Virus record (IMG/VR): IMGVR_UViG_3300047547_000032
Span: 1-30,460 of that record
Direction: 5' to 3' (one strand)
Length of the DNA stretch: 30,460 bases
Source of the DNA: a virus
Shown: one piece after another, positions 20,108 through 23,311 of the stretch
Position numbering within the stretch: the first letter of the stretch is position 1
How the letters are laid out: each line of letters opens with the position of its first letter
Translations under genes and position numbers: made by a program
Notes under the pieces: model-generated
Told to the model about the DNA's origin: nothing
The model's database searches: none
Seen by the model: only the letters and a program-made list of their open reading frames with translations

Positions 20108-21055
20108 TTAATACTTCCATTCTCCAGTTAATGAATCCTTTGAATACTGAGTGACAGTGGTTTCAAAGAAGTTTCCTAGTGTATTCGATGTAATCAAGTC
20201 AATCCATTCGCAGGGGTTTTCCTTGATTCCGAATTGTCGTTTCAATCCCATCTGTCTCATGCGATAGTCACAGACATACCGAATATATTGCTTCATCTCG
20301 TCTGCTGTGGTAGGGCCTTGCCCTACAGAGTGCACAAGGTCGATGAACTCATCTTCCATTGCTACCACTTGCCTAGCACTCTCATACACTCTAGCCTTCC
20401 ATGCATTTGTAACAACATGAGGATGTTCTTCCAGAAAGATACGAAGCAATTCTACAAGTCCAGTCACATGCCAGGACTCATCAGGCATGCTCCACTGGTT
20501 GACGCTCACCATACCTGGAAGTTTACCATCCTTTGCGAAGGAAAGCAACATGGCGAAGGAAGCAAACAGGTTCACCCCCTCCATCAGAATCTGCTTGGCA
20601 AGGTATTCAGCAAGACCTGCATCAGAGTCTAAGTCATGTTGTTCAAGCATATACTCGTGCTTATCCTTCATTGACTTGTAATTGAGGAATTCAGACATGA
20701 ATTCCTCTGAGTCATACCCTAGAGTATCGTTCAAGCGTTTATAGCCAAGAATGTGTGTCACTTCTCGGTTAGCAAATGACAGAAGCATCATGCGTGCATC
20801 AGCGTTCTTGAACTTAGGAAGAAGACGTTCTACATACAAAGCACAAACATCTGTATCTGCTTGAGTGAACAATCTAAGAATCATCTTAATGAATGATTTT
20901 TCAGATTCAGAGATTGTTCCGTTCTTCCATTGCTCTACATCTTGACGCATATCAGCTTCAGCTACAATCCAATGATTACGTTCATGGCCCTCTAACGTCT
21001 CTTGGAGCTTGAGATACTTAGGTACAAAGATTTCAGTTGGTGTGAGAATACTCAT
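20108..21055 (-). CDS. nrdB: Ribonucleotide reductase, class Ia, beta subunit
   Basis: 315 residues, slightly shorter than the 376 of E. coli NrdB. It holds the diiron-tyrosyl radical cofactor that starts ribonucleotide reduction in NrdA. All ligands expected from E. coli are in place: D67, E98, H101 with radical Y105 (EVTHILGY), E159 (MEGVNLF), E193 and H196 (DESWH). Spacing D67 to E98 (31) and E159 to E193 (34) equals E. coli. It ends in a short tail (TGEWKY), the region that docks on NrdA. ATG at 21055 follows nrdA by three bases. It makes deoxynucleotides for phage replication. Confidence 0.93.
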   Translation of the reverse strand: MSILTPTEIFVPKYLKLQETLEGHERNHWIVAEADMRQDVEQWKNGTISESEKSFIKMILRLFTQADTDVCALYVERLLPKFKNADARMMLLSFANREVTHILGYKRLNDTLGYDSEEFMSEFLNYKSMKDKHEYMLEQHDLDSDAGLAEYLAKQILMEGVNLFASFAMLLSFAKDGKLPGMVSVNQWSMPDESWHVTGLVELLRIFLEEHPHVVTNAWKARVYESARQVVAMEDEFIDLVHSVGQGPTTADEMKQYIRYVCDYRMRQMGLKRQFGIKENPCEWIDLITSNTLGNFFETTVTQYSKDSLTGEWKY

Positions 21056-21058
21056 ACA

Positions 21059-23311
21059 TCACCCCTCACAAGCCACACATGCACTACCATTACCACCCCA
21101 ATCAACAAGAGCCTTTCTTTCAATAGTTTTCACAGTGTCTACTTTCGACTCCTTTTCTGTTCTGTAGTAATAAAGGGTTAGTACATTCTCAGACTTGAGA
21201 AACTTGAGATGAACGCTGTTGACGTACTCTCTGCTGGCGCCGTGAGGGAAGAACAGATTTAAACTCTGAGCTTGACAGATGTACTGTCCTCGTTGGTCAG
21301 CCAGTTCTACGAGCCAATGCTGATCCATCTCCATTGCTGTTTTGAATACAGCCTTTTCGTTCTCACTCAAGAAGTCTAGGTGTTGTACACTCCCATCCAT
21401 CTCTAAGATTGAATTCCAAGTTGCCTTAGTATTCTGTCCATAACTGTCTAGCACTTTCTCAAGATACTTGTTCTTGATAACAAAGCTACCTGCACGAGTG
21501 TCCTTGACAAAGATATTACGATACCAGGGCTCAATGCTTGCACTACTGTTGGCAATGTCTGCACTATTTGCATTTGGCGCAATAGCCATCAATCGAGAAT
21601 TTCTTAGGCCAGTGCCAAGCATATCAGGTGCTTCGCCTCTTTCAATTGCCAGTTGCTTACTTTCTTCAAGTGCTCTTGATTTAATCAGGCCATAGACCTG
21701 ATGTGTCAACTGTACAGCACTATTAAAGCCTCCGCTCTCAAACGGAATCATCTTGCTTTGAAGAAGAGAATGCCAACCAAGAGTTCCTAAACCGAGTGCT
21801 CTCTCTCTTTCAGCAGAATATTTAGCCTTTGACAATGTATCTGGAGCATTGTCAATGAAGAATTGTAGCACATTGTCTAAGAATCGAATCAAGTCTTGAA
21901 CAATTCTAGTATCCTTCCATTCTTCAAATCGCTCAAGGTTCAATGAAGATAAGCAACAAACGAAGGAACGCCACTCATCAGTTGGCAAGGTTATTTCTGA
22001 ACAGTTGCCAGTCAAGATACCATTGAATACACCTCTGTTTCGTTTTGGTTCAGTGAAGCAGTAAGTTGGGCTAATTCGGCCCGTATGTTCTACATGCATA
22101 ACCTTTCGCACTTGCCAATGCCCTTCCGGGTCTCTGTAAGGCTCTAGTTCATCGCCAGCCACTAATTGCTTTGCCCTGACTTCTATTGTGCTCCAGTCGT
22201 CATAGTCTTCAATGTAGTCTTCAACGTAAAACTTGTGTTCCTTTGTACACTCTAATGTACTCCCATTGCGGAATGTCAATTTAATGAGTTCGGCAGAATC
22301 AGAAGTTTTTCTTATTGTGACTTTAGACCATTCCACTCCGTTCCAAACATTAACTTCTTGATCTTCAATATTTTGAATCGGAAATTCACCTTTATCTGTC
22401 AAAACTAGAGTCTCAGGTGCAACACAAAGATTACTGCCCTTGACTGTCAACCCTAACTTCTTCTGCGTCTCAGGCATCTTCCGATTAGCAAGATCAATCT
22501 TGAGCATATAGGGCTCACCTGTTAGTGCCCGAGTCTCGATCATCTTTTCCCAGATGCTACGAGCCTTCACTGTTTCATACACCTTGCCAGAATGAGGGCA
22601 CTTAAGATCAAAATCCTTATCTTGTAGCACTGCCTCAATAAAGTCATCTGATAGATTAACAGCAGAGTGAAATTGAGTGCGATTGTCTGAACGTCGTTTA
22701 GGGTCTCCTCCTGGCACTCTAAAGTTTATATGTTCAACAATGTCAGGATGGTCTACATCCAGATAATAGGCCAAGGCTCCTTTTCGAGTTTGCCCTTGTC
22801 TAAAGTATCCAATTGCACTATCAATTACTTTCATGTAGGGAATCGGCCCCGGGGCCTTTTCGCTAGTGCCTCTGATACTGTTGTGTGCACCGGTGCCTCC
22901 GCCACTTACAGACAACGTAGCAAGTTCTTGGAGGACTTCTGTCTGACCTACAATTGAATCTGGGATTTCAAATGCAAAACAACTAATCGGCATGCCATGA
23001 CTTTTCTCTTCCTGGATAAAGGCTTGGTTGTGCCAGTAATGCTTACCAGTTTTACTTTTATCTTCAATCCACTTACCCTTCGGGGCATTTGAAAGAACAG
23101 GAGAAGCATATGCAAACCAACCTGCGTATGCATAATCATAAATTCGTTGTGCGAGACTTAAGTCACCGTAGCAAAATGCTGTAGCTGCTCTTGCGAGGGC
23201 TTGAGGAATTGTCTCTCCCTCTCGTGTGTAGTAGCCTTCTAGAAGTGTCTTAGAAAACTATTCTGGATTCTTTCTATCAATCTGGATTCCGTTATAGTTA
23301 TATTTGCTCAT
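21059..23311 (-). CDS. nrdA: Ribonucleotide reductase, class Ia, alpha subunit, with mini-intein and in-frame amber codon
   Basis: The true start is ATG at 23311, overlapping the upstream stop (ATGA); the frame then holds 750 codons including a TAG at codon 18 (23258-23260). Without the intein, about 609 residues remain, with no ATP-cone domain at the N-terminus. Catalytic residues are present: MPISC (C111, the E. coli C225 equivalent), NLC-S-E across the intein junction (C437, thiyl-radical C439 equivalent, with the glutamate), FVCCLSSLNL (C462 equivalent), TLYYY (radical-transfer tyrosines) and a C-terminal CVAC. Residues on both sides of the amber read as normal NrdA, so TGG to TAG is the likely change. 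Translation cannot reach the rest without suppression, since no ATG, GTG or TTG follows until M107. Confidence 0.85.
22004..22426 (-). other. Mini-intein in NrdA, 141 residues, no endonuclease domain
   Basis: It begins with C (CVAPETLVLTDKGEFP, block A), has a T-x-x-H block B (ECTKEH, T61/H64 of the intein), and ends FNGILTGN before C of the extein (blocks F and G). The N-extein ends SNL and the C-extein begins CSEI, so removal restores SNLCSEI, the catalytic NrdA motif. The usual penultimate histidine is glycine and the block F histidine is also absent. At 141 residues there is no room for a LAGLIDADG or HNH domain. Confidence 0.85.
23258..23260 (-). other. In-frame amber codon (TAG) at codon 18 of nrdA
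   Basis: Read leftward: AAT CCA GAA TAG TTT TCT AAG, giving N-P-E-stop-F-S-K. The frame is otherwise open for 750 codons and the residues flanking the stop fit NrdA. A single change from TGG (tryptophan) would create it. Confidence 0.9.

Follow-up and report, generated by a model that had tools for sequence, protein, structure and literature searches.

The large-subunit ribonucleotide reductase (RNR) gene of a viral DNA fragment carries an in-frame insert directly ahead of the codon for its presumptive radical cysteine. The locus raises the question of whether this insert is an intein that removes itself from the enzyme and, if so, whether the unusual residues at its C-terminal end turn splicing into a switch on deoxynucleotide supply. 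The window, as used here, is the whole stretch analysed, positions 1 to 30,460 of IMG/VR virus record IMGVR_UViG_3300047547_000032 (30,460 nucleotides). It is a fragment of a tailed phage. Its plus strand carries the genes for the major capsid protein, the tape measure and tail fibres; nrdA and nrdB lie on the minus strand, together with genes for a cytosine methylase, a 5'-3' exonuclease-like protein, a metallophosphoesterase and a small kinase-like protein. The small-subunit gene nrdB (20108..21055, minus strand; PF00268, E 3.8e-57, and an NCBIfam beta-subunit model) has no intein, and the small open reading frames scanned near nrdA gave no Pfam match to a free-standing endonuclease.

Identification of the insert and its site

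The insert occupies 22004..22426 on the minus strand as 141 codons in frame, between the flanks LTVKGSNL and CSEITLPT; it begins with CVAPETLVLT and ends with FNGILTGN. A sequence-only reading of the window had described a 141-residue insert running from Cys to Asn between SNL and CSEI, and was exact in coordinates and residues alike. All the nucleophiles of a class 1 intein are present (Cys1, Asn141 and the +1 Cys), and the block B TxxH motif reads T61-K-E-H64. The penultimate position (G:6) is Gly140 in place of His, and the block F histidine position (F:13) is Asn130, again in agreement with that reading. No homing endonuclease domain was found in the 141 residues; relatives with the additional region measure 239-375 residues.

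The insert was matched by the NCBIfam model TIGR01445 (intein_Nterm) at 38.1 bits, against a curated cut-off of 24.5 bits, and weakly by Pfam Intein_splicing (E 3e-5, below the gathering score). An AlphaFold (AF2) model, for which the input was the window intein together with 28 natural mini-intein relatives, had a mean pLDDT of 97.3. Its best Foldseek matches in the PDB were almost all inteins, plus the related hedgehog domain, with TM scores of approximately 0.7-0.8, in keeping with a HINT fold; they included Npu DnaB, Ssp DnaB, Mtu RecA, gp41-1 and NrdJ-1 (8ubs). A sequence search of the PDB with the intein returned a single weak match, to a bacterial intein-like domain (E 0.33). Together with the family alignments, these data identify the insert, on sequence and modelled structure, as a genuine mini-intein of class 1 type and a predicted splicer; the proposal that it lacks an endonuclease was borne out by its length.

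The C-extein (21059..22003, minus strand) starts at the +1 Cys, which was aligned with Cys439 of E. coli K-12 NrdA, the thiyl-radical residue, in an alignment that included intein-free relatives. The insert thus stands directly before the radical cysteine, as had been claimed. The catalytic residues Asn437, Glu441, Cys225, Cys462, Tyr730 and Tyr731 (E. coli numbering) are kept, the barrel domain was recognized by PF02867 (E 7.8e-91), and the protein classifies as a class I NrdA. Comparison with intein-free homologues had been proposed as a check, and the insert is absent from them: they read GSNLC[NS]EI without a break, the site was empty in all 80 of the NrdA relatives kept from one scan, and NrdA of Methylophilales phage Melnitz is likewise without an intein. 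Since such homologues continue directly through this motif, and since both the intein models and the predicted fold match the insert, the idea that the segment is ordinary NrdA sequence and no intein at all has a negligible probability.

We therefore regard the insert as a degenerate, endonuclease-free member of a widespread family of inteins at the RNR radical cysteine, most likely self-excising, with a probability of roughly 0.88. In the predicted route, Cys1 would form a thioester, the N-extein would be transferred to the +1 Cys, Asn141 would cyclize, and the peptide bond between SNL and CSEI would then be formed, leaving the +1 Cys as the thiyl-radical residue of NrdA. Because the two cysteines are the same residue, the enzyme is expected to be inactive before splicing, as the sequence-only reading had supposed.

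The intein family at the radical cysteine

Viral contigs and bacterial genomes were scanned, phage records were added and near-copies were removed, which gave 102 distinct inteins. Nearly all are located at the radical cysteine of an RNR, in class I and class II enzymes and in phages as well as bacteria. The insertion site (slash) was SNL/CxEI-like in 77, NL/CxES in 14 (a group that includes the reductase of Crocosphaera watsonii WH 8501 and of Microcystis), NP/CGE in 5, and other or shifted in 6. Mini-inteins of 131-156 residues number 29, and the other 73 members have 239-375 residues. Ten extein proteins were tested against reductase models, some being assigned to class I (NrdE_NrdA, NrdE-prime) and some to class II (NrdJ_Z, RTPR).

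The block B TxxH motif was found in 102 of 102, a Cys at F:4 in 101, and a Cys preceding the block B Thr in 91. At the penultimate position, 98 members have Gly, 2 Ala, 1 His and 1 Tyr; at F:13, 58 have His, 26 Gly, 17 Asn and 1 Ser; 71 members end in Gln and 31 in Asn. With Gly-1 so nearly universal and F:13 so variable, both states belong to the whole family, and by their distribution Gly-1 and a non-His F:13 read as family traits. The suggestion that the missing histidines mark the window intein as a conditional splicer is not upheld by these counts. Among functional inteins generally, about 5% have another residue at the penultimate His (G:6), neither this nor the F:13 His is required in all inteins, and a C-terminal Gln is able to splice (PMC4031507).

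Members of the same family were also seen in the loci L018, L011, L016, L135, L158, L180 and L024, mostly at the equivalent Cys. When tested, L018, L135, L158, L180 and L024 agreed best with models of class II (B12-dependent) reductases; the intein of L024 lies one residue further on (NPC/SEI), like NrdJ-1. Two long open reading frames, L027 (1316 aa) and L026 (1625 aa), gave multiple partial matches to the intein query, which suggests several inteins per protein. An identical 332-residue intein with identical flanks occurs at two places (L205 and L206) on the Methylophaga MAG contig PAJP01000006.1 (114.8 kb); the two are nearly identical to the viral-contig copies L168/L160, and the contig may be phage DNA with repeated ends that was placed in a bacterial bin. 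The NrdE of Corynephage P1201, in which an intein has been reported, matched the query too weakly for placement in the family.

In this survey a single intein family has colonized the radical cysteine of RNRs of both class I and class II, among phages and bacteria alike, and it dispenses with the penultimate His almost throughout. Its members offer ready-made small natural inteins with which to test His-independent cyclization of Asn or Gln. The importance of the survey is modest.

Endonuclease loss and selection

In a tree of the splicing domains, 13 changes between full-length and mini forms were needed, of which at least five are required by well supported branches, and the topology indicates that full-length and endonuclease-free forms have interconverted repeatedly. 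A clear recent case of natural endonuclease loss, judged from the tree, comes from two viral contigs, where the sister NrdA inteins L150 (331 aa, with an endonuclease region) and L120 (136 aa, without it) occupy the same site. The branch to the window intein is long (0.84), which, like its Asn at F:13, weighs against splicing of this copy. The sequence-only view that the window element is fixed is plausible.

Substitution rates were taken from the two least saturated mini-intein pairs, the other pairs being more or fully saturated at synonymous sites. For L137/L138, dN was 0.101, dS 0.853 and dN/dS 0.118; for L031/L134, the values were 0.062, 0.859 and 0.072, respectively. The related mini-inteins are thus under purifying selection, from which we infer that Gly-1 mini-inteins of the family probably still splice. 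The dN/dS range of about 0.07-0.12 in these two pairs fits constitutive, required splicing, and the window copy is likewise predicted to splice constitutively.

Asn endings were more frequent in mini-inteins (16 of 29) than in full-length forms (15 of 73; Fisher p 0.0015, on raw counts). Phylogenetically independent pairs gave no support for a link between the Asn ending and endonuclease loss, and such a link is therefore not claimed.

Nearest relatives and the question of a switch

The nearest relatives of the window NrdA are L148/L019 (extein 77% identical), which carry a 334-residue family intein, and L003 (71%), which has a mini-intein of 134 residues; Melnitz NrdA, without an intein, is 54% identical to the window extein. 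The window intein is 53% identical to the splicing domain of L148/L019 and 43% identical to that of L003. Both nearest relatives have nrdB, and the capsid and exonuclease genes of the window were not found in their records; as both records are fragments, no inference is drawn from synteny. The presence and form of the intein therefore vary among near relatives, a pattern that fits gain and loss of a mobile element and not a conserved control. With close relatives having another form or none, there is no conserved switch, and the proposal that splicing acts on deoxynucleotide supply is left without support.

A more specific version holds that splicing is slow and dependent on redox state or temperature, through Gly-1, the Asn at F:13 and the conserved residues Cys60 and Cys123, so that NrdA becomes active late and the supply of dNTPs in the infected cell is thereby controlled. 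Any intein at the radical cysteine must leave before the enzyme works, the cysteines at F:4 and before the block B Thr are conserved as counted above, and redox-sensitive inteins are known, the DnaB intein being an example (PMC6195587). We nevertheless consider this version improbable: the supposed switch residues are common to the full-length selfish forms too, Cys is the second most common residue at F:4 in inteins generally, where it occurs often (PMC4031507), and the differing or missing inteins of the closest NrdA relatives deprive a regulatory role of comparative support. Slightly less credible still is its extension to the whole family, by which splicing would be redox-gated, release of the radical cysteine coupled to the thiol state of the cell, and the endonuclease-free forms kept for that purpose. 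For the self-excising, constitutive intein that we favour, persistence would be explained by the site itself, since imprecise loss there would kill the enzyme, and not by regulation. No report of splicing of any family member was found in the open-licence literature searched.

An amber codon in nrdA

The likely start of nrdA is at 23311. The gene reads MSKYNYNGIQIDRKNPE over its first 17 codons (23261..23311, minus strand), then an in-frame TAG as codon 18 (23258..23260, minus strand), then FSKTLLEGYY onward to the end. This TAG is absent from the sequence-only reading. At its position the relatives have four codons, YVDD in L148 and YVDA in L003, and the window is nine bases shorter; the TAG was apparently left by a nine-base deletion relative to the nearest relative. 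The segment from the amber codon to the first in-frame internal ATG (22994..23257, minus strand; FSKTLLEGYY...KSHG) was recognized as N-terminal NrdA coding sequence by homology to L148/L003. The next in-frame ATG, GTG or TTG after the TAG is the ATG at 22993 (MPISCF), which lies just upstream of the Cys225 equivalent and opens the remainder of the N-extein (22427..22993, minus strand; MPISCF...SNL). With an in-frame TAG at codon 18, the window copy of nrdA is truncated as read, and as sequenced it may give no full-length NrdA precursor.

Amber recoding throughout the phage was considered and rejected: reading TAG as sense lengthens nrdA alone among the confidently identified genes, and some predicted open reading frames end in TAG. 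A tRNA search of the 30 kb fragment found none. The TAG may represent a recent loss, a codon suppressed by a tRNA encoded elsewhere, or a population or assembly variant.

The nrdA of this phage could be a pseudogene whose intein has been freed from the need to splice. The lack of any ATG, GTG or TTG between the TAG and MPISCF, the nine missing bases, the absence of a tRNA from the fragment and the lack of general TAG recoding in the window all favour this explanation. We consider it unlikely, if a good deal more credible than a regulatory switch, because the remainder of nrdA forms an open frame of 732 codons with every catalytic residue in place and 77% identity to the nearest relative, and because the catalytic residues of the intein are intact; moreover, the TAG could have arisen recently, be suppressed by a tRNA of the host or of the phage from outside the fragment, or be an assembly variant. 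A pseudogene would concern the state of the window copy and is compatible with the insert being a mini-intein.

Comparison with known systems

Phage RNR genes have repeatedly been found to contain inteins (PMC3653736; PMC7344957). No paper on this mini-intein, or surveying the radical-cysteine site, was found in the open-licence literature searched, and a search for the named RIR1 inteins came back nearly empty. The window element is an ordinary member of an already known intein type.

Inteins of the same family and site occur in Escherichia phage SelmaRatti, Curvibacter phage P26059A, Vibrio phage ICP1, Rheinheimera Barbavirus and Crocosphaera watsonii WH 8501. They share with the window intein the CVAPET start, VWNG or IWNG, TxxH, YCFxE, the FNGxL(T/A)G[NQ] end and the penultimate Gly; they differ in having an endonuclease region, 328-347 residues and mostly a Gln end, as against 141 residues and an Asn end in the window. 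The mini-inteins of Nitrincola phage 1M3-16 (136 aa) and Burkholderia phage FLC6 (139 aa) are like the window intein in site, missing endonuclease and penultimate Gly, but end in Gln, have approximately 41-45% intein identity to it, and belong to other hosts and NrdA types.

The heavily used split intein NrdJ-1 (PMC13123727; 8ubs) also comes from the radical-cysteine region of an RNR and has the HINT fold, with a TM score of 0.74 to the window intein. Its native junction, NPC/SEI, lies one residue later, however, with Ser at +1, and it is split and has a published splicing rate (PMC13123727). The NrdB intein of Aquifex aeolicus (PMC8772380) lies inside an RNR active site, like the window intein, but in the R2 subunit, between metal ligands; it has 346 residues with an endonuclease, and its removal was shown experimentally. 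The same paper cites work on splicing without the penultimate His (PMC8772380). The RNR intein of Chilo iridescent virus (cited in PMC4031507) has an atypical C-terminal Gln, as do most family members, whereas the window intein ends in Asn.
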